Shown here: in pieces, positions 2,322 through 44,608 of the stretch | How positions within the stretch are numbered: the stretch's first letter is position 1 | How the letters are laid out: each line of letters begins with the position of its first letter | Origin: a virus | DNA length: 52,649 nucleotides | Virus record (IMG/VR): IMGVR_UViG_3300035150_000079 | Coordinates: 1 to 52,649 of that record | Reading direction: 5' to 3' (one strand) | Program-made: the position numbers and the translations under genes | The notes under the pieces: generated by a model | Database searches by the model: none | What the model was told of the DNA's origin: nothing | The model's input: only the letters and a program-made list of their open reading frames with translations

Positions 2322-2525
2322 ATGAGAGGGTACGGTCTTCCAAGGTGTGATGATGTAGAAAATCCCGATGTTGTTGACATCAGGACGTATGGTTTGAAAA
2401 CATCAACAGGCGGAAGGCGTTATCAAAAACCTTTCGCCAAGAAAAGTTCCAGGAGGATATGGAAACGGAAAGAACGAGCCGTTGTAAAAAAATATTGTAA
2501 AGAAGCTTTCAAAGAAGAGTATTGA
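2322..2525 (+). CDS. Small basic hypothetical protein
   Basis: The start is ATG 2322, set by GAAGGAG seven bases upstream; an in-frame upstream extension reads through AT-rich leader and is rejected. The 67 residues are strongly basic in the second half (KKSSRRIWKRKERAVVKKYC), suggesting nucleic-acid binding or a disordered tail. No family recognised. It is the first gene after the AT-rich leader. Confidence 0.6.
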   Translation: MRGYGLPRCDDVENPDVVDIRTYGLKTSTGGRRYQKPFAKKSSRRIWKRKERAVVKKYCKEAFKEEY

Positions 2526-2539
2526 TTAAGGAGATAAAA

Positions 2540-2800
2540 ATGTTAAATTTGAATCAAATCAGACCTCTGGACGAAAATGACAAAGTAGAAATCGTTGACG
2601 ATGCATGTCATATCTATATTCACCCTAAATTTAATAAATCTAAGTCTAGCGCAACAGCGCAGTTGAAAATCACAGCGAATGGTGAAGTGCTTTTGCTATC
2701 AACTATAGGTTTACCAACACGTAATTGGGAAGTACACGCGAAATGTTTCAATCGAGCGTTAGCTTATTCCGATATGGCGCGTTTTTTAAATTTTGAATAG
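2540..2800 (+). CDS. Small hypothetical protein
   Basis: The 86-residue protein starts at ATG 2540 with SD AAGGAGAT directly upstream (the in-frame TTG 2522 lies before the SD). The predicted content is mixed beta (IYIHPKF, ATAQLKITANGEVLLLST) followed by a short helix (FNRALAYSDMARFL). No signal peptide, membrane segment or known motif. Unknown function. Confidence 0.6.
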   Translation: MLNLNQIRPLDENDKVEIVDDACHIYIHPKFNKSKSSATAQLKITANGEVLLLSTIGLPTRNWEVHAKCFNRALAYSDMARFLNFE

Positions 2801-2855
2801 TAGAGGTCGATTAATATTTGACCGAAATGATTTACGACCAGAAAAGGAGAATAAA

Positions 2856-3305
2856 ATGGGAAATCTTATAAATCAGATATTATGGGGAAGGGAACAAAGA
2901 AACCCGACGACGGCCGAAAAAGCCGTCATAGATAGCGTCCTGAGCAATCCTGTCGCATGGCAACGAGCTCTAAGCCAGGATCTATTTCTGAATCCCCTTC
3001 GTAAATACATATTAACTGTCGGGACGGATGATCCCGTCGTATTCACGGAATACGATTTCTTAATAACCCAATTACGTGCTCACAAACTAACAGCCGAATC
3101 ATTTTCGTATCATATCCTAGCTTGGATTACGGGCGACCCCTTGGATCCTCTTTATCACGTTGGGTCCGAGGGTTGGCGCTCTGCGTTTCGTGCGGCTGTA
3201 TTATTGGTCGCATACCGCGAAGAAAGTTGGAGAAGAGAGCGCCCCCAAGAGGGATTGGGGGTTTGTCAGATGTTACTTAGAGCTTCAACCCCGGGAAAGG
3301 AGTAG
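2856..3305 (+). CDS. Hypothetical protein in GC-richer early block
   Basis: The 149-residue protein starts at ATG 2856 after AAAAGGAGA. It is mostly helical (TTAEKAVIDSVLSNPVAWQRAL ... FRAAVLLVAYREESWRRER). Base composition is clearly richer in G and C than the head and tail genes. The coding region contains hairpins at 2909-2927 and a 7-bp one at 3242-3261 close to its 3' end. No family recognised. Composition suggests an origin different from the late genes. Confidence 0.6.
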   Translation: MGNLINQILWGREQRNPTTAEKAVIDSVLSNPVAWQRALSQDLFLNPLRKYILTVGTDDPVVFTEYDFLITQLRAHKLTAESFSYHILAWITGDPLDPLYHVGSEGWRSAFRAAVLLVAYREESWRRERPQEGLGVCQMLLRASTPGKE

Positions 3306-3309
3306 GAAG

Positions 3310-3588
3310 ATGAAGATGGAGATCAGAACAGGGACCAAAGCAACGGCTGGGTTTATCATTAAAGTTGAAAATCAGAACATGTTTCGCCCCGATCCAAACG
3401 GGAACGTACTTAGGTTTACAGATACCTCTTGGAATAACCGGGGCGTCAGCGGATATTCTCCAGCAACAGGGGCGAAATTGATAACACGAGGGACGCCCGA
3501 AAGTTTAGCTACATGGGAAGTATCGTGCTTCCCGCTAGATATCGATGCTATGGCGGCCCGATTGGCTGGGAAAGGAGCAGGAAGATGA
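3310..3588 (+). CDS. Small hypothetical protein
   Basis: The 92-residue protein starts at ATG 3310 after the box GGGAAAGGAGTAGGAAG, which is repeated almost exactly before the next gene. It looks beta-rich (GFIIKVENQNMF, NVLRFTDTSW, GAKLITRGTPES) and contains no catalytic motif I recognise. The longer in-frame extension back to 3160 overlaps the previous gene and lacks an SD. It ends with a 4-base ATGA overlap with the next start at 3585, implying coupled translation. Confidence 0.6.
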   Translation: MKMEIRTGTKATAGFIIKVENQNMFRPDPNGNVLRFTDTSWNNRGVSGYSPATGAKLITRGTPESLATWEVSCFPLDIDAMAARLAGKGAGR

Positions 3589-4070
3589 AAACTTACAAAA
3601 CAATGCCGTCCCAAACGGAAGAGGATTGGATTAAAGGTCTTTTGTTGTTTGGTTCGGATTATGCGCATACGTATTTAGACGTGTATGTGCATAGAAAAGA
3701 CCGGCTTGATTTTTTCGTTAGTTGGAATGCCATTGATGATGACGAAAAAATCAAGTTGATCGAAGAAAAAATGCCTCCTCCGACTGATGGCGGATGGCAG
3801 AATAAACCATATTTTATAGCTGCCCCTGATATTATGGCGGTGAAAACTGATGCGCTGGGGCGAGTCTGGCGGGCACACGAAGCTTACGAGAGTCGATCTC
3901 GTAATACGACGTTAATTAGGTATTGGGGTGTCAGTAGCGATATATATGGTTATGAGTATGTCGAGCTCATAGTCGGTGAGAAATCATCATTCATAGATTT
4001 ACCAATATGCAAAGAATGGTCCGATGGCAATATATCCTTTGAGGATATTGTGAAATTTTTGAATGAATAA
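3585..4070 (+). CDS. Hypothetical protein
   Basis: The 161-residue protein starts at ATG 3585 behind the second copy of the start box (3568-3589). Mixed alpha/beta composition with aromatic-rich strands (HTYLDVYVHRKDRLDFFVSW) and an acidic C-terminus (GNISFEDIVKFLNE). No recognisable family. It could be one of the small host-interaction proteins typical of phage early blocks, but nothing in the sequence shows a function. Confidence 0.6.
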   Translation: MKTYKTMPSQTEEDWIKGLLLFGSDYAHTYLDVYVHRKDRLDFFVSWNAIDDDEKIKLIEEKMPPPTDGGWQNKPYFIAAPDIMAVKTDALGRVWRAHEAYESRSRNTTLIRYWGVSSDIYGYEYVELIVGEKSSFIDLPICKEWSDGNISFEDIVKFLNE

Positions 4071-4141
4071 ACGCCAATCGCCCTGCCCGTCAGCCATAGC
4101 AGGCGGGAGGAAAGCCGATTCGGCCAAAAAAGGAGTAGAAA
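4071..4141 (+). other. GC-rich intergenic stretch with hairpins
   Basis: The gap between two early genes holds arms CCTGC (4082-4086) / GCAGG (4099-4103) and the near-palindrome GCCGA-T-TCGGC (4114-4124). The SD AAAAAAGGAG for the gene at 4142 follows. The hairpins lack a T-run on the + strand, so a classical terminator is not supported. They continue a series of stems that runs into the next gene. Confidence 0.4.
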
Positions 4142-4510
4142 ATGCATTATTGTGTCAATAGATACGGGTGTCCCGTTCACCATCACGGGAGAGATGACCG
4201 GCGATGCTCGTGTCGACCCTATTGGGTCGACGAACCAGGCTGTCGAGAGTTGCTCGATGGCGTTGAGTCCTCTAAAGCATGGAGGGAGGACCACGATCCA
4301 GTTGAGTGCGCGATTCATGGGGGCGATTGCGTGGGAGTCGCCTCGTCTATAGCCGACCATGAGGCGACTGAATTGTGTTTTTGGCGGGGAGCAGTCAGAG
4401 ACGCAAAGAAATACGGATGGATTGGAAAGGACACTCCTTATTGGAAGTCTGAATGGGAAACGGAGAATAAATATTGTCGCGCCGTGCTTGAGGAACTGGT
4501 GGCACGGTAA
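4142..4510 (+). CDS. Cys/His-rich hypothetical protein in a GC-rich island
   Basis: ATG 4142 follows a strong SD (AAAGGAG). The 122-residue product has a Cys/His-rich N-terminus (C4, C10, HHH 13-15, C22, C24, C34), so metal binding is plausible, and an acidic helical C-terminal half (WETENKYCRAVLEELVAR). The first 240 bases are about 55% G+C by hand count and contain perfect inverted repeats at 4172-4189, 4212-4231 and 4336-4369. A second frame (4152-4352) and the opposite strand are also open here, which the GC bias explains. The gene is favoured by its SD and length, but a structured RNA role for this DNA cannot be excluded. Confidence 0.5.
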   Translation: MHYCVNRYGCPVHHHGRDDRRCSCRPYWVDEPGCRELLDGVESSKAWREDHDPVECAIHGGDCVGVASSIADHEATELCFWRGAVRDAKKYGWIGKDTPYWKSEWETENKYCRAVLEELVAR

Positions 4511-4551
4511 TTGGCAGCTAATTTTTGTTGCGTAAAAAAAGGAGAAAGAAA

Positions 4552-4959
4552 ATGAAGAAAATACAATACGGTTTTTCAGCTCGCTATGTCGATATAGACA
4601 TAGCTCGAATTCTAGAAGAAAATCCTAACTCGGATTTTATCCGAGTAGAATGGAAACGGAAAACACGTATCGAGGGTAATAGACGCTTCCCAAGAAATTC
4701 GGCAGTATATCTAATAACCGAAAAAGGCATGAATCGATTAAGATCAGTTCGTATGGGTATAGGTTACGACATTCATATCAAGCACAACAAACGTCTATCG
4801 ATAGATTCAGACGGCAGTCTTACCACGTTCAACATCAGTAATACTGATTCCAATTTCCATTTCTTGGAAATAGAGAAAGAAGAATTCGAGAAACTCTATT
4901 CCAAGTTAAGAGAACGGGAAGAGAGGAAATGGCCGGTTACTGTTACCGCAATCTACTGA
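4552..4959 (+). CDS. Hypothetical protein
   Basis: The 135-residue protein starts at ATG 4552 after AAAGGAGAAAG. An in-frame upstream start at 4525 lies before that SD and is rejected. Sequence features are beta-rich N-terminal two thirds (DFIRVEWKRKTRI, NSAVYLITEKG) and a charged C-terminal helix (IEKEEFEKLYSKLREREER). No family recognised. Base composition is back to the AT-rich genome norm. Confidence 0.6.
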   Translation: MKKIQYGFSARYVDIDIARILEENPNSDFIRVEWKRKTRIEGNRRFPRNSAVYLITEKGMNRLRSVRMGIGYDIHIKHNKRLSIDSDGSLTTFNISNTDSNFHFLEIEKEEFEKLYSKLREREERKWPVTVTAIY

Positions 4960-5034
4960 CAGGGAGGGAATGGAGAGAAGAAAATTTTGATGGAGTCAAT
5001 AACATCGCTGTATGGCTCCGATAAGGAGGAATAA

Positions 5035-5292
5035 ATGCGGATTGATCGGGTAAATACAGAACAAGGCAAGACCGAAGATGGTCGCACATTCGGATATTGC
5101 GGTATAAGCGGACGGGGCGGACAGTTTTTCGTCTGGATGGATACGCTCCAGGAAACCCTCGATGCTATCGAGGACGACGATGTTGATCCTCCGGTCAACT
5201 GGCCGGAACGGGCCTACCAAAATGTGCGTGGCATAATACGTCGCGCATGGTCCGAAACGAAAGGAAGAGTAAATGACGCGACGACAAATTAA
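5035..5292 (+). CDS. Small acidic hypothetical protein
   Basis: The 85-residue protein has an excellent SD (AAGGAGG before ATG 5035). It is acidic in the middle (LDAIEDDDVDPPVNWPE) with Gly-rich strands before it (YCGISGRGGQFFVW). It overlaps the next gene by 20 bases. No recognised family. Confidence 0.6.
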   Translation: MRIDRVNTEQGKTEDGRTFGYCGISGRGGQFFVWMDTLQETLDAIEDDDVDPPVNWPERAYQNVRGIIRRAWSETKGRVNDATTN

Positions 5293-5554
5293 CAAAATTA
5301 TCAAAAGTTGGTACAATTCAACCCGCAACACAAATATCCAAGTTATCGTCTATAATGATAACGGGAAAGTGAAAACTATTTTTGAATTCGGCCGCAACAT
5401 GTTTATAGCCGATGGACGACAATCGGCATATTTAAAACAATTATTGCTCCAAATAACCGGAACTTTCGATATCACCGAAGTTCCGGCGGAATTTTCACGA
5501 GATACTTTTAATCCAAGTATAAAAATTTACGGCGAAAAACTGGAAGGGAAATAA
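5273..5554 (+). CDS. Small hypothetical protein
   Basis: The 93-residue protein starts at ATG 5273 inside the end of the preceding gene, with SD AAAGGAAG. It is basic at the N-terminus (MTRRQINKIIKSWY) and otherwise mixed. It ends two bases before the TTG start of the receiver-domain gene, whose SD lies within its last codons, so the two may be translationally coupled. Unknown function. Confidence 0.55.
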   Translation: MTRRQINKIIKSWYNSTRNTNIQVIVYNDNGKVKTIFEFGRNMFIADGRQSAYLKQLLLQITGTFDITEVPAEFSRDTFNPSIKIYGEKLEGK

Positions 5555-5556
5555 AA

Positions 5557-5907
5557 TTGGAAAGCAAAGATCTCAATCTGTTAGTTATTGATGACGAACC
5601 GTCAATAAGAACGATGTTGAAAAGGTTGTTGAAAAATCATTTTAAATCTGTAAAAGTTGTAGAATCTTCCACGACAGGCATACGTGAAGCGCAAAAGGGC
5701 GAATTTGACATAATATTAACGGATTGGGAATGTCCGGAACCCGACGGAGCAATCAAAGTAATGGATAGCGTAAATATTCCGGTTGTTATAATGACCGGGA
5801 ATATCGCTCGTAAACATCCTACCAATAAGGTAATTTATAAACCATTTGATATTGAGTACGTTGTAAGTTCTCTTGTTGAGGCTTACAACAACACCAACAA
5901 TAAATAG
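5557..5907 (+). CDS. Stand-alone CheY-like response-regulator receiver domain
   Basis: The 116-residue protein is a single REC domain with no output domain. The conserved phospho-site set is complete: acidic pair D12-D13 with E14 (LVIDDEPS), phospho-acceptor D56 (ILTDWECP), T80 (VVIMTG) and K95-P96 (VIYKPFD). In the family, the aspartate accepts phosphate from a histidine kinase and the domain switches conformation. No kinase, phosphatase or DNA-binding partner is encoded nearby, so a host kinase would have to act on it. Start TTG 5557 lies behind GGAAGGGAAATAAAA. A receiver alone in a phage early block is unusual; sequestering host phosphorelay or mimicking CheY or Spo0F are possibilities, all inferred. 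Confidence 0.85.
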   Translation: MESKDLNLLVIDDEPSIRTMLKRLLKNHFKSVKVVESSTTGIREAQKGEFDIILTDWECPEPDGAIKVMDSVNIPVVIMTGNIARKHPTNKVIYKPFDIEYVVSSLVEAYNNTNNK

Positions 5908-5928
5908 GCTAAATAAAGGAGAACGGAA

Positions 5929-6222
5929 ATGTCATTTATACACAGGAGAAGAAGAAGAGATTCGAAGAAAAGGTATGATGTGTTGGCAGATATTATAAAC
6001 AACTTGGAAGGATATTCTAGGTTGCAAAAAATTGAAGCTCTTGTGTCGGTAGGAATACCAATAAGTCGAAAATGCGATAAAAATCGCGTTGATAAGAAGG
6101 TGAAAGATTCGTATGAAAAAGCGACTCAAGAATATTTGAGTATTTACGAAGAACGGATTGAAGCAAATCGTAAAAGAAGAATACGTAAACAACGTAATCT
6201 TCAAAATATACAAGGAAGATAA
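5929..6222 (+). CDS. Small very basic hypothetical protein
   Basis: The 97-residue protein starts at ATG 5929 after AAAGGAG. Both ends are dense in Arg and Lys (HRRRRRDSKKRY at the start, NRKRRIRKQRN near the end) with a helical middle (DSYEKATQEYLSIYEERIEA). The charge pattern suggests nucleic-acid binding. It ends one base before the ligase start. No family recognised. Confidence 0.6.
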   Translation: MSFIHRRRRRDSKKRYDVLADIINNLEGYSRLQKIEALVSVGIPISRKCDKNRVDKKVKDSYEKATQEYLSIYEERIEANRKRRIRKQRNLQNIQGR

Positions 6223-6223
6223 A

Positions 6224-7132
6224 ATGTTTAACAGACCGATGAAGGCAGCAGAGTTGAAAAACATCGAAGAATTAAGGTTCCCAGTTATAGCAACACCTAA
6301 AGTTGATGGAATACGATGTTTAAAACCGGATAACAGAGTGTTAGCAGCTTCGTTTAAACCAATACCTAATGATTATATACGTAATATCTTAGAAAGATAT
6401 CTTCCTAAAGGGGCCGATGGGGAAATATGTACTTCTTCTGAATTTAGCCAGGTTTCATCGGATGTAATGTCTAAGGGCGGTAAACCGGATTTTATTTTCT
6501 GGATGTTTGATTACGTAAAATACGGCGAATTAAGCATTCCCTATTCGACACGATTGTCGAATATGTTAGAATGGTTTTACATGAAAGGAAATCAACACAT
6601 CAACCGACATATAAAAGCTTTGCCTTTCAAATTTATAAGTTGTGTTGATGAATTAAGGGATTACGAAAAAGGCGTGTTGGCACAAGGTTACGAAGGGGTT
6701 GTTGTAAGAGATCCTGAAGGGCCTTACAAATGCGGTTATTCCACTTGGAAAGAACAATGGATGGTCAAGTGGAAAAGATTTGTTGATTCCGAAGCCGTAA
6801 TACTTGGTTTTCAAGAACAACTTAGTAATCAAAACAAACTTGAGAAAAATGAGTTAGGAATGGCCAAACGTTCCGGTAAAAAATCGGGTAAGGTTCCTAC
6901 CGGGAGATTAGGGAAATTTTTAGCCAGAGATATTCATAACGGATTGGAATTTAAGTGCGGCACGGGAAAAGGACTTACCCTTAAATTAAGGGAAGAGATC
7001 TGGAATAATCAACCCGAATATATCGGGAAGATATTTAAATATAAGTACCAACCCCATGGAGTTAAAAAACTCCCAAGAATACCAATATGGTTGGGATTTA
7101 GAGATCCAATAGATATCACTAGCAAGGAGTGA
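6224..7132 (+). CDS. ATP-dependent DNA ligase
   Basis: The 302-residue protein carries the nucleotidyltransferase motifs of ATP-dependent ligases. Motif I KVDGIR is at residues 26-31, where Lys26 forms the AMP adduct; ADGEIC and MFDYVK follow as motifs III/IIIa, then YEGVVVRDPEGPYK (IV) and WMVKWKRF (V). A short OB-fold region follows. This small two-domain layout is like the T7 ligase, which seals nicks in duplex DNA during replication and repair. ATG 6224 is chosen because AAGGAAG precedes it; the extension to 6158 overlaps the previous gene. It is the only ligase here and, with no phage polymerase found, presumably works with host replication enzymes. Confidence 0.9.
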   Translation: MFNRPMKAAELKNIEELRFPVIATPKVDGIRCLKPDNRVLAASFKPIPNDYIRNILERYLPKGADGEICTSSEFSQVSSDVMSKGGKPDFIFWMFDYVKYGELSIPYSTRLSNMLEWFYMKGNQHINRHIKALPFKFISCVDELRDYEKGVLAQGYEGVVVRDPEGPYKCGYSTWKEQWMVKWKRFVDSEAVILGFQEQLSNQNKLEKNELGMAKRSGKKSGKVPTGRLGKFLARDIHNGLEFKCGTGKGLTLKLREEIWNNQPEYIGKIFKYKYQPHGVKKLPRIPIWLGFRDPIDITSKE

Positions 7133-7983: not shown

Positions 7984-8286
7984 ATGGGTAGCGGCGGAAC
8001 AAGAGTAAGATGTGGTTCTTTTACCGGGACTGGTGCGGCTATAAGTATTACATCAGTAGGATTTCAACCCAGCAAAGTTAAACTTTATAATCTTACTACA
8101 GTTTTTACTTTAGAGTGGAATGAAGCAATGGGCGAAGACGGCGCCGGAGCACTTACTACAGGAAGTACAGGAGTAGTGACGGCTGAAACAACGGCCGGAA
8201 TTAAACCGACAGATACCGGATTTGATTTAGGAACTTCTGCTGTAAATGTTGATGGCGAAGTTATTTACTACGAAGCCCACGAATAA
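7984..8286 (+). CDS. Small beta-rich virion-type protein
   Basis: The 100-residue protein has SD TGGAGGT. It is Gly/Thr-rich and predicted almost all beta (CGSFTGTGAAISITSVGF, KVKLYNLTTVFTLEW), without charged helices, ending in a strand-like EVIYYEAHE. Its place at the head of the structural block, before terminase and portal, and its composition suggest a small capsid or tail surface protein. No specific family recognised. Confidence 0.55.
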   Translation: MGSGGTRVRCGSFTGTGAAISITSVGFQPSKVKLYNLTTVFTLEWNEAMGEDGAGALTTGSTGVVTAETTAGIKPTDTGFDLGTSAVNVDGEVIYYEAHE

Positions 8287-8301: not shown

Positions 8302-8676
8302 ATGTCAATAAAATCTTCTCCGAATACGGCACCGTCTTATGCTTTACATAGAGAAGGCGTAACAGCAGCAGATAGCGATATAACCGTATTCACAAAAAAA
8401 GATGGTTGTAATGCGACTATGTATAAATATGCGCATATACAAATTGTTCCTTCTGATGATGCGAATCCGAATGTTGCAGTTTGGTGGTGGAGTGATCAAG
8501 CCGATAGGTTTATCCAGGAGCAAACGCCAATTGCTAAAACTGGAGTAGGAGCAAACACGTCCTATGAGTTCTCGATAGAGCCTATGGGGCGTATTTTCTT
8601 CGTACAAGTAGCTACACTTGCTGAAGGCAGCGTTGATATATTAGTATCGGGATTCGAGTCAATACAACTATCCTAA
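8302..8676 (+). CDS. Small beta-rich virion-type protein
   Basis: The 124-residue protein starts at ATG 8302. It alternates short strands (YAHIQIVPSDDANPNVAVWWW, FSIEPMGRIFFVQVATL) typical of a compact beta-sandwich such as a decoration or fibre-associated protein. It sits between two other small genes upstream of the large terminase. No catalytic motif or membrane segment is visible. Function is inferred from neighbourhood and composition only. Confidence 0.5.
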   Translation: MSIKSSPNTAPSYALHREGVTAADSDITVFTKKDGCNATMYKYAHIQIVPSDDANPNVAVWWWSDQADRFIQEQTPIAKTGVGANTSYEFSIEPMGRIFFVQVATLAEGSVDILVSGFESIQLS

Positions 8677-8688
8677 TAGGAGGTTGGT

Positions 8689-8952
8689 TTGCCTTATCCA
8701 AATGAACACGCTGCTAGGCAATTAGACCCTAAACAATTTAGACGTTTTGCGCGTACTTCAAGGAATTTCCCTAAAGGCGTATCGGCAATAATAGGTTGGC
8801 TTCCTAATGGTAAAAGCAAAATACAATCGCTACGATTTAACATTAGATATTGGTCGGCCGACCAAGCTAGACGTTGGTTAAGGAAACACGGCTATAAATC
8901 TAATATAGAAGAAGCAACATCTAAACATATTAGTTGGGGGAACATACTATAA
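8689..8952 (+). CDS. Small phage protein with MPYPNEHAAR start
   Basis: TTG 8689 follows a strong SD (AGGAGG). The 87 residues begin PYPNEHAARQLDPKQF and continue IQSLRFNIRYWSADQARRWLRKHGYK. This Arg/Trp-rich module is one I associate with tailed-phage packaging and capsid loci, often beside or fused to head-maturation proteins. Its role is not established. It overlaps the large terminase start by one base (TAATG), implying coupled translation. Confidence 0.6.
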   Translation: MPYPNEHAARQLDPKQFRRFARTSRNFPKGVSAIIGWLPNGKSKIQSLRFNIRYWSADQARRWLRKHGYKSNIEEATSKHISWGNIL

Positions 8953-39260: not shown

Positions 39261-41420
39261 ATGGCTACGAATATAACAACCCCTGATTTTAATTTTTCGG
39301 CATTTTATTACGCGGACATCTTAGAATCGCTTATGCGATACAAAAGAATATATGTTCCGGAATTAACCGAAGAGTTAGACGAAGAACCTTTTATACAATT
39401 TTTAAGAGCGGTAGCCCTAGTAGGACATTTAAATAACACTCTTTTAGATTTGGTAGCCAACGAATCGACTTTAGGGACTGCTAAATTAGCTGATACCGTT
39501 CGAGAAATGTTCAAATTGATAGACTATGATTTAAGCCCTGCTACGCCTTCGCAAGTTGATGTGGTGTATGAACTCAGCAAAGTATTCGTTAGTAATTACG
39601 TATTAATACCTGAAAATTCGCAATCTTCTACAAAAAGAGATGGCGATAATCCGATAATAACATTTGAATCATTAGAAGAACTTGAAATAGAAAGAACCGA
39701 TAGATTTAGTTATGTTTATTCTTTAGAAGACACTACATATACCAATTACACTAGTGAAGCGAATACAACCCCAGGAAGTACATGGGAACCCTGGACAACT
39801 CCTAGTTCTAAAGATTGTATATATTGGGGACACAAACAAGTGATGTGGAATAAATTGTCCGCATATTTAGACACCCCTTCTTCTAACATAAATGGTGTTT
39901 TTGAATTCTATGATGGAGAATGGAGAAAAACAAATCCAACATCAGTAACGGTAACAGGAGGAGGAAGTTCGTTATATTTCGATTTAACAAGTTATTTAGG
40001 AACGCAAAATAGACAAGGAACCCTTGTAAGAATACAACTTAACGAATCATCAACTTATGAAGATGTTTATGTAACTTGGACGGGAAGTGAAAATGTCGTA
40101 TCTACCGGACTATTAGGACAATCTGATCCTTCAACGGAAATAGAGGATTATTCTGTAGGTTCGGATTGGACTATATTAGACGATGTAGAAGATGGAACTT
40201 TAGATTTTACGCAAGACGGAGATGTAGATTATACTCTGCCGCATACATCAACTAAAAATTGGGTAAAAACGACTATCAACGGATTAGAAGCGTTTTGGTT
40301 GAGATATAGGATAATAACGGCTTCTACTCCAACTTCGCCTATTTTTATTAATACCCGTATGGACGAGGGGAAACAATACGTAATAAGATTGGTAACACAA
40401 GGTCTAACCCATACGGACGAACCAATTGGCAGTAGTACGGGACTTCCGAATCAACGTTTTTCTATATCTAAAGAAAATTTCATAATAAATAGCGAAACAG
40501 TTTACGTTGATGATGAGGAATGGACTAGAGTAGATAATTTTCTAGGAAGCAAACCTAATGATAAGCATTACACAATAGAACTTACCACTAATGATAGAGC
40601 AATAATAGTATTTGGTGATGCTGTTACTGGTAAAATACCTTCACTAGGCGTTGGAAATATTGATGTTACTTTTAGATACGGCGTACAAAATAATGGTAAT
40701 GTTGGAAATAATACCGTAACGATAGATAAATCAGGATTAACATTCGTAAATAAATTGTGGAATCCTAGACAAGCTACGGGTTGGAGCGAAGCACAAGGAG
40801 CGTCGGAAAGTAGTTTAGAAAAAGCAAAAATAGAAGGCCCGGCTACTTTACGAATAAAAGACGTTGCAATAAGCGCGAGCGACGTAGAAACTTTGTCGTT
40901 ATTATATGCCGATAGCGATGGAGCCAAACCGTTTAGCAGAGCGTTTGCTTTTGAAGAAGGATACGGACCAAAAACTATAGAATTAGTTGTAGTAGCCAAA
41001 GGCGGCGGAACGGCAAGTTCTACGCAATTAGAAAATTTACAAACTTATTTCAACGGAGATAAATATTCTTATCCGCCAATAGAATCACACATAGTAGCAA
41101 ACCAACAAGTAATAACAACTAATTATATACAGAAAATAATAGATTTAGATTTAACAATATACGGTAGTGACATTTCAGAAACAGTTGTTTTAAATTCATT
41201 ACAAAGCGTAATACAGCCTGAAGCCTTAAAAGAAGATGGAGTAACTTGGGAATGGAATTTCGGCGTATCCATAACTGTATCTAGAATAATACACGAAGTC
41301 TTTAGTACCAATAATTCAATAACTAAGGTTGTTGTTAATGACCCGTCTTCGGACGTAACGTTGCAGACCAGAGAACTCCCCGTTTTAGGCGAAGTTACCA
41401 TTACTATAATAGAATCCTAA
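39261..41420 (+). CDS. Baseplate wedge protein, gpJ-like (large)
   Basis: ATG 39261 is preceded by GAGAGGAA; TTG 39249 is before that SD. The 719-residue protein has gpJ / gp6-like features: FIQFLRAVALVGHLNNTLLD near the start, DRAIIVFGDAVTGKIPSLGV, NIDVTFRYGVQNNGNVGNN, and a C-terminal block with IKDVAISASDVETLSLLYAD and TIELVVVAKGGG. It is much longer than P2 gpJ (about 300 residues) owing to a central insertion of beta domains (about residues 150-420) that may decorate the baseplate. It forms the wedge arms that trigger contraction. Confidence 0.8.
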   Translation: MATNITTPDFNFSAFYYADILESLMRYKRIYVPELTEELDEEPFIQFLRAVALVGHLNNTLLDLVANESTLGTAKLADTVREMFKLIDYDLSPATPSQVDVVYELSKVFVSNYVLIPENSQSSTKRDGDNPIITFESLEELEIERTDRFSYVYSLEDTTYTNYTSEANTTPGSTWEPWTTPSSKDCIYWGHKQVMWNKLSAYLDTPSSNINGVFEFYDGEWRKTNPTSVTVTGGGSSLYFDLTSYLGTQNRQGTLVRIQLNESSTYEDVYVTWTGSENVVSTGLLGQSDPSTEIEDYSVGSDWTILDDVEDGTLDFTQDGDVDYTLPHTSTKNWVKTTINGLEAFWLRYRIITASTPTSPIFINTRMDEGKQYVIRLVTQGLTHTDEPIGSSTGLPNQRFSISKENFIINSETVYVDDEEWTRVDNFLGSKPNDKHYTIELTTNDRAIIVFGDAVTGKIPSLGVGNIDVTFRYGVQNNGNVGNNTVTIDKSGLTFVNKLWNPRQATGWSEAQGASESSLEKAKIEGPATLRIKDVAISASDVETLSLLYADSDGAKPFSRAFAFEEGYGPKTIELVVVAKGGGTASSTQLENLQTYFNGDKYSYPPIESHIVANQQVITTNYIQKIIDLDLTIYGSDISETVVLNSLQSVIQPEALKEDGVTWEWNFGVSITVSRIIHEVFSTNNSITKVVVNDPSSDVTLQTRELPVLGEVTITIIES

Positions 41421-41432
41421 TAGGAGGTTATT

Positions 41433-41843
41433 TTGACGTTTAGTAACAGTTTTGAAAATGTTGTATTGGATTCTATTTTAGGCGCTGGAGCTACCTTATT
41501 AGGTTCCACGTTAGAAATTGCTTTATCGTCCACTAATCCTACAGAAGACGGTTCGGGAATTACGGAGCCAGTAGGCAACGGATATTCTAGGAAATCAATT
41601 TCTAACGATGCTACATATTGGGGAGCAGCAGTAGACGGAGAAAAAACAAATGTTTTAACGATAATTTTTGCAGAAGCGACCGGCGCATGGGGAACAATGA
41701 CGCATTGGGCGATATACGATACAGGAGTTTTTAAAATTTACGGCGAAATAACAGATGTTTCAGGCAATTCTTCGCCACAATTCGTTGATGACGGAGACGT
41801 AGTAAGATTTTTACCTGGCGCTTTAAAAATAACGTTGGATTAA
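41433..41843 (+). CDS. Small tail fibre-associated protein
   Basis: TTG 41433 follows TAGGAGG. The 136-residue protein reads LEIALSSTNPTEDGSGITEP, GNGYSRKSISNDATYWG and GAWGTMTHWAIYD, the wording of a compact beta family I associate with phage tail fibre loci. It lies between wedge and gpI-like genes. Probably a fibre or baseplate-edge component; biochemical role unknown. Confidence 0.7.
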   Translation: MTFSNSFENVVLDSILGAGATLLGSTLEIALSSTNPTEDGSGITEPVGNGYSRKSISNDATYWGAAVDGEKTNVLTIIFAEATGAWGTMTHWAIYDTGVFKIYGEITDVSGNSSPQFVDDGDVVRFLPGALKITLD

Positions 41844-42463: not shown

Positions 42464-44608
42464 ATGGCGAATGTTATACAAGATTTAGCTAACAACTCTA
42501 TAGCGGCGGATACTACGGGCCAATTCATAGGCTATGTTGAATCAGAAGAAACGTCCGAAACATTATCTTTGAAAATGTATAATTTTTTATTATACACAAT
42601 AAGACAATCTGATTCGACTATGGAGGGGAAATATTTCGTTAAAAGATTATTTCAAGGCCCTCAGAACGTATGGCAAACCATACAAAATAAAATATTTTCC
42701 ATTAAAGATTTATGGTCTGTTACAAGATGTCCTGATGAAGCTTTAAAATATCTTAAAAACATAGTAGGTTGGACAAAGGAACTTGATTACATAACGGACG
42801 AATTAGATTGCGATACATTAAGAAGGCTTATAGCTTCATCCGTTCCTCTTTGGAGTAAAAGAGGAAAAGAAGAAACTATAATAGATATCATATCTTTGTT
42901 GCTAAATACAAGATGTGTTATATGGAATTGGTTTGATTATCGTTGGATTGTTGATGAAACAGAATTTGCTGAACAACACGCAGGATATGATTCGTGGATA
43001 ATAGACCACGGAGAAGAAGGCTTAGGGGAATATTCAAGCAACATCAGAATTGTTGACGATGGAACTCTTAACAAAGATTTAGTTAAAAATGTATTAAAAC
43101 TAATAAGAGCTTGCGGAGAAAGAATAGAAATATCGTATATAAATTTTTTGGATAGATTTTTAGTGGATGACGATACGTCGCAATGGGATAATGTTGAAGG
43201 AACAATAATGTCGGTGTCTGATTCAATAGCCGAATTAGATGTTTCAGGAGAGTATCAGTTATCGGTAGCAAACGTAGAAAGCGCATACGAATGGTCTAGG
43301 TACGTTGCTTATTTTAGAATACAAGGTGAAGGAAATACAGGCTTCGGAGTAGTATTTTATTATCAAGATTCCGATAATTACTATGGATTGGAATTATTAA
43401 TATCGCCGTACGAAAGCTATAAATTGTTTAAGGTTGTTTCCGGAGAATATGAAGCAGTAAAAATCGGAAAACTTAATTATGACTTATCAGAAAATATTTG
43501 GTACGGAATTAGAATACATATAGATATAGACGATAACGGTTTAGATGTAATAAAAATTTACTTGGATACTGAGTTAATTGTTGATTCATCAGACGTTTAT
43601 GATAATATAGCCTTAGCAGGCACTTTAGGCAACGGTTATATATTGCGTACCGTCGATTATGGATTGAATTGGGAAGTCATTACCAATACTGATGAAAGTC
43701 GAATAACCTACATCAGTTCTTTTAATAACGGAACGGTATTAGTTGGTACTTATAGCGATGGAAAAATATTACGTTCTATCGATAACGGAGAAGCATGGAT
43801 AGAAATGGAGGATACATCTCAAACCTCTATAAATGGCATAGCATCATTTAACAACGGAATAGCGATTGCAACATCTAATAACGGAAAAATATTCCGAAGT
43901 ATTGATTACGGAATAAATTGGTCAGAAGTAGAAGATACCGTAGAAAGTTGGATGAGTTGCGTAGCAACATTCAGTAACGGAGTAGCAATTGTTGGATCAG
44001 GGGATAATGGTAAAATATTTCGATCTACCGATTACGGGGGAAATTGGTCGGAAACAGAAGATACAACGGAAGAAGAGATTAGGTGTATTGCTACATTTAG
44101 CAACGGCGTTGCGTTAGCAGGAACTTCAAATGGAGGGAAAATATTTCGATCTACTGATTACGGGGAGAATTGGTCAGAAGTATTAGATACAGCAGAGACT
44201 ATGATAGCAGTTTTATTGACTATTGATAACGGAATAGCATTGTTCGGTACATCTCCTCACGGTAAAATATTTAGAACTGTTGATTATGGATTGAATTGGT
44301 CGGAAGTAGAAGATACATTAACAACCATTATCAGGTCGATGGCTCATTTTGGTAATGGTGTTATTATAGCTGGAGGCGGTAGCGGAAAAATATTTAGATC
44401 CGCAGACTATGGTTTGACTTGGGTAGAAATAGAAGATATAGACGAAAGTCAAATTTATAGCATGGATAATATTAAATATAGCACTTTAAGTGATTTAAAT
44501 AAAGGAACAATAGGGGTTTTTGCGAATGATGGTTCGACTTTAAAATTAAGCGAATGCGAGTTATTTCAATTGCCCGCATCAACAGAAATACTGGACGTAA
44601 ATTCGTAA
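42464..44608 (+). CDS. gpI-like tail protein with lectin-like domain and seven-repeat Asp-box propeller
   Basis: The 714-residue protein has three parts. Residues about 1-205 resemble tail protein I (WQTIQNKIFSIKDLWSVTRC, PDEALKYLKNIVGWTKELDY, TLRRLIASSVPLWSKRGKEE). From about 225 a concanavalin-like beta-sandwich starts (SRYVAYFRIQGEGNTGFGVV, YYGLELLISPYESYKLFKVV). Within it, at about 389-650, lie seven repeats of 41-42 residues with the Asp-box S-x-D-x-G-x-x-W (GKIFRSTDYGxNWSE), the blade signature of sialidase-type propellers. The sandwich then resumes (LNKGTIGVFANDGSTLKLSE). It probably links baseplate to fibres and binds host glycan; no sialidase catalytic residues were identified. Confidence 0.75.
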   Translation: MANVIQDLANNSIAADTTGQFIGYVESEETSETLSLKMYNFLLYTIRQSDSTMEGKYFVKRLFQGPQNVWQTIQNKIFSIKDLWSVTRCPDEALKYLKNIVGWTKELDYITDELDCDTLRRLIASSVPLWSKRGKEETIIDIISLLLNTRCVIWNWFDYRWIVDETEFAEQHAGYDSWIIDHGEEGLGEYSSNIRIVDDGTLNKDLVKNVLKLIRACGERIEISYINFLDRFLVDDDTSQWDNVEGTIMSVSDSIAELDVSGEYQLSVANVESAYEWSRYVAYFRIQGEGNTGFGVVFYYQDSDNYYGLELLISPYESYKLFKVVSGEYEAVKIGKLNYDLSENIWYGIRIHIDIDDNGLDVIKIYLDTELIVDSSDVYDNIALAGTLGNGYILRTVDYGLNWEVITNTDESRITYISSFNNGTVLVGTYSDGKILRSIDNGEAWIEMEDTSQTSINGIASFNNGIAIATSNNGKIFRSIDYGINWSEVEDTVESWMSCVATFSNGVAIVGSGDNGKIFRSTDYGGNWSETEDTTEEEIRCIATFSNGVALAGTSNGGKIFRSTDYGENWSEVLDTAETMIAVLLTIDNGIALFGTSPHGKIFRTVDYGLNWSEVEDTLTTIIRSMAHFGNGVIIAGGGSGKIFRSADYGLTWVEIEDIDESQIYSMDNIKYSTLSDLNKGTIGVFANDGSTLKLSECELFQLPASTEILDVNS
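43634..44430 (+). repeat. Seven tandem Asp-box repeats of 123-126 bp
   Basis: Repeat units begin with GGxAAAATATT at about 43634, 43760, 43883, 44009, 44135, 44261 and 44384, a spacing of 123-126 bp. The units at 44009 and 44135 are almost identical over their first 45 bases at DNA level, the others more diverged. The repeat preserves the reading frame, so gain or loss of units would keep the protein open. Confidence 0.85.

Follow-up and report, generated by a model that had tools for sequence, protein, structure and literature searches.

A stand-alone receiver gene in a phage contig

The virus contig IMGVR_UViG_3300035150_000079 of IMG/VR (52,649 nucleotides, analysed over its full length and referred to here as the window) encodes, on the + strand at positions 5557–5907, a 116-aa protein that consists only of a response-regulator receiver (REC) domain. 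The gene has a TTG start codon and is preceded by a ribosome-binding site read from the sequence (GGAAGGG; 5542–5548, +; 8 nt 5′ of the TTG). It begins 2 nt past the stop codon of the preceding open reading frame (ORF), among small + strand genes. Pfam assigned residues 9–86 to Response_reg (PF00072) with a score of 42.2 bits (E = 1e-10; curated cutoff, 30.2 bits), and the corresponding protein of a sister phage, described below, scored 41.1 bits. A weak match to BRCT_3, overlapping the same residues, was under its cutoff. With NCBIfam, only sub-cutoff matches scattered across FixJ, NtrC, CheY, BarA, CpdR and DivK were obtained, and therefore no subfamily can be named. Among solved-structure sequences the best match was CheY (E about 7e-8), spanning mainly residues 3–68 and not the output half, and Spo0F gave no match at E ≤ 0.001; overall identity to bacterial RECs was about 22–34%. 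The profile score, the conserved sister ORF (86% identity, dN/dS 0.28) and the predicted REC fold exclude chance, and the locus is confirmed to encode a genuine stand-alone REC protein.

The residues of the phospho-acceptor site are all present: the acidic pair D12–D13 of the Mg2+ site (5590–5595, +), the phospho-acceptor D56 at the end of β3 (5722–5724, +), T80 at the end of β4 (5794–5796, +) and K95–P96 at the end of β5 (5839–5844, +). The ends of β1, β3, β4 and β5 are occupied as in the REC family, and every site residue is kept in both phages. A receiver-only gene with this set of residues had been proposed in a first-pass annotation of the window and is borne out by the Pfam match (E = 1e-10) and by the residues themselves. 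The phosphoryl-accepting site is intact and the protein looks competent for phosphorylation; that it becomes phosphorylated, which host protein it pairs with, which way the phosphoryl groups move and what the phage gains are matters of inference.

The receiver fold is trimmed at α3, α4 and the aromatic switch

Residue spacing in the phage protein was compared with that in 29 bacterial RECs. D56 and T80 are 24 residues apart, compared with 28 or 30 residues in all 29, and the distance between T80 and K95 is 15 residues, compared with 22 or 23. The switch residue position, three residues before the lysine, holds a valine (V92; 5830–5832, +), whereas Tyr or Phe is found there in 29 of the 29 bacterial RECs. 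Both spacings and the valine are common to the two phages. AlphaFold2, run on a 31-sequence alignment whose 29 bacterial rows all have normal α4 spacing, predicted a structure without α4 (mean pLDDT 91.7), composed of β1 (residues 7–11), α1 (15–25), β2 (31–35), α2 (38–46), β3 (52–56), α3 (64–71), β4 (76–80), a loop (81–91; pLDDT about 68), β5 (92–94) and α5 (99–115). The irregular loop that replaces α4 in this model (5797–5829, +) agrees with the short T80–K95 spacing and differs more between the two phages than any other segment. α3 is predicted to be about one turn shorter than usual, and the five strands and four helices of the model depart from the canonical five-helix (βα)5 fold.

Membership in the REC family nevertheless stands on the profile and the site, because known REC proteins tolerate the loss of α4 (PMC9981736). 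Consistent with this assignment, Foldseek returned CheY and other receivers, among them 3nhm, a small receiver from Myxococcus, with TM scores reaching 0.83. By contrast, the features of an output receiver, namely α4 and an aromatic switch on β5 (the 4-5-5 face), are absent from the phage protein. The profile search and structure prediction that the first-pass annotation had proposed thus yielded a Response_reg match and a predicted REC fold without α4, a trimming that the annotation had overlooked.

The gene is maintained in a sister phage

A second contig, IMGVR_UViG_3300031379_000034, carries the same gene at positions 5755–6105, with the same length (116 aa), TTG start and neighbours, and the two proteins are 86% identical. 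The terminases of the two contigs are 93% identical, indicating that they represent related phages. Near-identical relatives (L004–L007) have their first position within the terminase gene, leaving the REC region uncovered. Between the two phages, dN/dS of the REC gene was 0.28 (bootstrap 0.13–0.59), higher than that of the ligase (0.055) and terminase (0.04) genes; as the value is below 1, we conclude that the REC gene is maintained. A degraded fragment of a longer regulator with loss of function in relatives, the outcome named in the first-pass annotation as speaking against its proposal, is not what was found, as the sister phage keeps every site residue and the same length.

Ten of the 16 amino acid differences between the two proteins lie in residues 81–91 and 98–103, so that 10 of the 17 positions in these two zones are changed, compared with 6 among 98 positions outside them (p = 1.4e-6 by Fisher's test, a descriptive value because the zones were picked after the changes had been seen). 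Low constraint is sufficient to explain the variability of the 81–91 loop. Other substitutions are located at positions 14, 15 and 19, at the N-terminus of α1, and at 98 and 100–103, in the β5–α5 region. Kinase specificity is set in the α1 and β5–α5 zones (PMC2991266), and the substitutions at 14, 15, 19 and 98–103 are compatible with, though no proof of, adaptation to different partners; their placement counts in favour of the acceptor reading discussed below.

Synonymous divergence of the REC gene was about half that of the flanking genes (16 of 73 sites versus 139 of 299, p = 1e-4), being low in codons 1–79 and high in codons 80–116. This pattern suggests either a recombination patch or constraint at the nucleotide level.

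Neighbouring genes and search for a partner

The gene immediately upstream (5273–5554, +) encodes 93 aa, ends 2 nt before the REC gene and is 90% identical in the sister phage; the gene downstream (5929–6222, +) encodes a basic protein of 97 aa and is 83% identical in the sister. Neither product was assigned to a known family. One small ORF after the REC gene, an ATP-dependent DNA ligase is encoded (6224–7132, +), and its downstream position is conserved in both phages. A promoter scan near the REC gene remained at chance level.

Scanning the 60-odd ORFs of the window with Pfam turned up neither a histidine kinase nor an HPt nor a further response regulator, and an output protein was not detected there either, in agreement with the first-pass annotation, according to which no kinase, output domain or partner was encoded there. 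The sister region, with 17 ORFs, likewise yielded no kinase, HPt or second regulator, and the neighbours at 5273–5554 and 5929–6222 showed no similarity to any known partner. The record has no end repeats and the contigs may be incomplete; therefore, partner genes could lie outside them.

Comparison with known receivers

In terminal receivers, phosphorylation shifts the T/S residue, the β4–α4 loop, α4 and the β5 aromatic residue, which alters the 4-5-5 output-binding face (PMC9981736). The α4-less receivers CckA Rec, MrrA, Sma0114 and SdrG are relay intermediates thought not to need 4-5-5 allostery, and a passive role is described for CckA Rec, Sma0114 and SdrG; the β4–β5 linker, except for its first residues, is not positioned to touch phosphotransfer partners, and 3nhm has been described as being without an ordered α4 (PMC9981736). 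CckA Rec, Sma0114, SdrG, MrrA and 3nhm resemble the phage protein in combining an intact phospho-site with an α4 that is disordered or missing, and Sma0114 also resembles it in being without the β5 aromatic residue (PMC9981736). These receivers are cellular, however, and in the phage protein the α4 segment is deleted (7 residues) and not merely disordered. Furthermore, the FATGUY motif of known α4-less receivers (F-A-T-G-x-x-Y-like after β4) was not found; the phage sequence reads I-M-T-G-N-I and shares T-G only.

CheY gives the best sequence and fold matches and has the same site residues, but it possesses α4 and Tyr106 for motor binding, neither of which occurs in the phage protein. Osp, a Rhodobacter single-domain response regulator that inhibits CckA, is also a stand-alone receiver-like protein (PMC9430884), but it is without the Mg2+ acidic pair and the lysine, both of which the phage protein retains. 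The cREC domains of jumbo phages are likewise phage-borne, with a receiver-like fold and conserved aspartates (PMC7824862), whereas they constitute a divergent family, linked to NAD/ADP-ribose enzymes, to which the phage protein was unmatched.

Possible role of the trimmed receiver

Taken together, the α4-less precedents and the placement of the linker (PMC9981736) indicate that the loss of α4 costs output and not phosphoryl acceptance. In the predicted model, the parts that dock on a kinase or HPt, α1 and the β5–α5 loop, are present. All six site residues are retained even though overall identity to bacterial RECs is as low as about 22–34%. Since the acceptor site and the docking parts are kept and the output parts are gone, we favour, with a probability of roughly 0.42, a phosphorylation-competent receiver that takes host phosphoryl groups without having a conventional output, that is, a sink or an intermediate-type decoy. 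The protein would dock on a host histidine kinase or HPt via α1 and the β5–α5 loop, and the phosphoryl group would be passed onto D56; no target would be activated, since the α4/Tyr-Thr output switch is absent, and the host phosphorelay would be drained or short-circuited during infection. The predicted anatomy is compatible with that of an intermediate (relay) receiver, which takes phosphoryl groups from, and gives them to, a His of a kinase or HPt with no output switching, and the phosphate-drain and adaptor ideas of the first-pass annotation, whose interpretation overall is partly supported, appear compatible with it as well. A more specific proposal is more doubtful, namely that in this phage lineage a receiver with its phospho-site kept but α4 and the aromatic switch deleted arose for the very purpose of drawing phosphoryl groups off a host kinase or HPt, as a viral short-circuit of host two-component signalling. 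Phage proteins known to target the two-component systems of their hosts are few, and a receiver cut down to its phosphoryl-accepting core would be a simple viral means to stop host signalling. The trimmed receiver would also provide a natural test of which parts serve for accepting phosphate and which for passing it on; an acceptor without conventional output is predicted to be phosphorylated by host kinases and to produce no output.

Several points weigh against an output-less acceptor. Loss of α4 and of the aromatic switch is not itself proof of a sink, the argument from conservation rests on two phage sequences only, and the motif of many α4-less intermediates (FATGUY) is only partly there (MTGN). 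In addition, the AlphaFold2 model built from the two phage sequences alone was weak (pLDDT 65 overall) and contained a 4-residue helix at 83–86.

The intact docking surfaces predicted for the protein would also suit an inhibitor like Osp (PMC9430884), which would block a host kinase or HPt by sitting on the surface where receivers dock and for which phosphorylation would be secondary or irrelevant; the phage protein PIT4 is known to target several host kinase domains (PMC10714779). However, unlike Osp, from which the acidic pair and the lysine are missing, the protein keeps all catalytic residues in both phages, suggesting that phosphochemistry matters, and we consider a pure inhibitor unlikely. 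Phosphorylation might instead gate binding to a phage or host protein, possibly the co-conserved neighbours, which flank the gene in both phages (5273–5554 and 5929–6222). Single-domain receivers are often adaptors, the models being the priming of ClpXP by CpdR, which has a FATGUY-like motif (PMC9981736), and the MrrA hub. Yet the usual switch elements are missing from the phage protein and the neighbours are similar to no known partner, and a phospho-controlled adaptor or relay hub does not seem probable either.

Mimicry of the output of CheY at the flagellar switch, or of Spo0F/Spo0A in sporulation, was suggested by the first-pass annotation and would fit the fact that the top matches by sequence as well as by structure are to CheY. 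CheY- or OmpR-type mimicry is disfavoured, however, because α4 and the Tyr/Thr switch are missing: the FliM-binding 4-5-5 face needs both α4 and the Tyr switch, and the CheY match covers mainly residues 3–68, with the output half outside. Likewise, no specific similarity to Spo0F emerged (no match at E ≤ 0.001), so that this suggestion did not hold up and such a mimic is very unlikely. A decaying passenger gene, captured from a host and without present function, would account for the two segments missing relative to bacterial RECs and for a dN/dS (0.28) above that of the ligase (0.055) and terminase (0.04); but the ORF is intact, its length and start are identical in two phages, the site residues are all kept and the upper bound of dN/dS is 0.59, all of which makes decay highly improbable. 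Finally, an enzyme that processes ADP-ribose or cyclic-nucleotide signals, the role put forward for the cyclic-phosphate-processing receivers (cREC) of jumbo phages, would likewise be phage-borne, REC-like and endowed with the catalytic aspartates (PMC7824862). Against it, Pfam and NCBIfam give an ordinary Response_reg and no cREC family, one cREC protein was a weak fold match only (E 1.7e-2, TM 0.45), no NAD/ADP-ribose enzymes were seen nearby and the adjacent ligase is ATP-dependent, which leaves this reading with hardly any likelihood.

Receivers in phage sequence collections

Stand-alone receivers are uncommon in phages, as the first-pass annotation had stated, but they are not new: stand-alone receivers have precedent in phages and α4-less receivers in bacteria, and the trimmed REC is an uncommon variant of this kind. 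A search of a viral fold library gave 25 matches to the REC protein at E ≤ 1e-3, of which the majority belonged to giant viruses and only a few to phages, and phage records matched by sequence were largely bacterial. The Alteromonas phages V22 (gp30, 149 aa) and A5 (gp11, 147 aa) encode CheY-like stand-alone receivers, which have been listed among putative class II auxiliary metabolic genes (PMC7289586, PMC10579305). Like the REC protein, they are phage-encoded and no kinase is noted alongside, but they are 18% identical to it, with no relation detectable by BLASTP. V22 gp30 has full REC spacing and lies in a tail-fibre/host-recognition module, whereas the REC gene described here lies near a DNA ligase gene.

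In viral homologue searches with the REC protein and its alignments, the sister contig was the only close relative. The trimmed architecture was found in none of the phage-collection and IMG/VR receivers examined, and a targeted pattern scan for other short-α4, W-type receivers recovered it in the sister only, the one further match being a chance hit inside a transposase. The receivers encoded by two further, unrelated contigs of IMG/VR, at 3986–4357 of L062 (183 kb) and 3989–4366 of L063 (39 kb), were set aside as ordinary full-length stand-alone RECs unrelated at the family level. In L062, the receiver gene is followed after about 70 nt by a 382-aa ORF whose product, by eye, resembles an actin/ParM-like ATPase. 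A third candidate, L061, proved to be a VanR-like two-domain regulator.

Five "phage" records matched by sequence were rejected as mostly or wholly bacterial DNA, which was the case in all four that were examined. The misfiled bacterial content included a complete CheY, regulators of the OmpR type and one GC-rich frame without any phage feature. General REC queries matched about 200–260 records of the phage collection, largely unannotated wastewater or faecal contigs of bacterial appearance. Many of the records OR84xxxx/OR85xxxx, MT83xxxx, CAKLQ* and AFYI/AGRM contain ordinary bacterial response regulators or chemotaxis genes. Such records look like bacterial contamination, and counts of phage signalling genes derived from these collections will be inflated.

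Other features of the contig

The contig, from an uncultured contractile-tailed phage, encodes a terminase, a portal protein, an XkdF-type protease and a contractile-tail baseplate. The best matches of the structural genes are scattered over Bacillus, Streptomyces, Rhizobium, Pseudomonas and Aeromonas and some archaeal viruses, at about 29–34% identity, and those of the ligase over cyanophages and Pseudomonas phages. When roughly 1,300 genomes from four phyla were searched for a donor of the REC gene, with a positive control, no bacterial relative scored better than E about 1e-13.

The regions that directly precede the REC neighbourhood, 2523–5285 of the window and 3370–5475 of the sister, are largely unshared between the phages, and the early region of the sister contains ORFs with matches to DUF5658 and to a DnaJ zinc domain. 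The product of a 100-aa ORF at 7984–8286 is 46% identical to its sister counterpart, compared with 83–94% for most neighbours, and may represent a fast-evolving or replaced gene. An identical 15-nt leader, TCCTAATAGGAGGTT, occurs at 8671–8691 and 41415–41435, before two TTG-started genes 33 kb apart; 0.02 such repeats would be expected by chance. Finally, both a Tail_P2_I baseplate domain and BNR/Asp-box (Sortilin-like propeller) repeats are encoded in a single 714-aa ORF at 42464–44608, and its product is likely a receptor-binding or glycan-binding tail protein.
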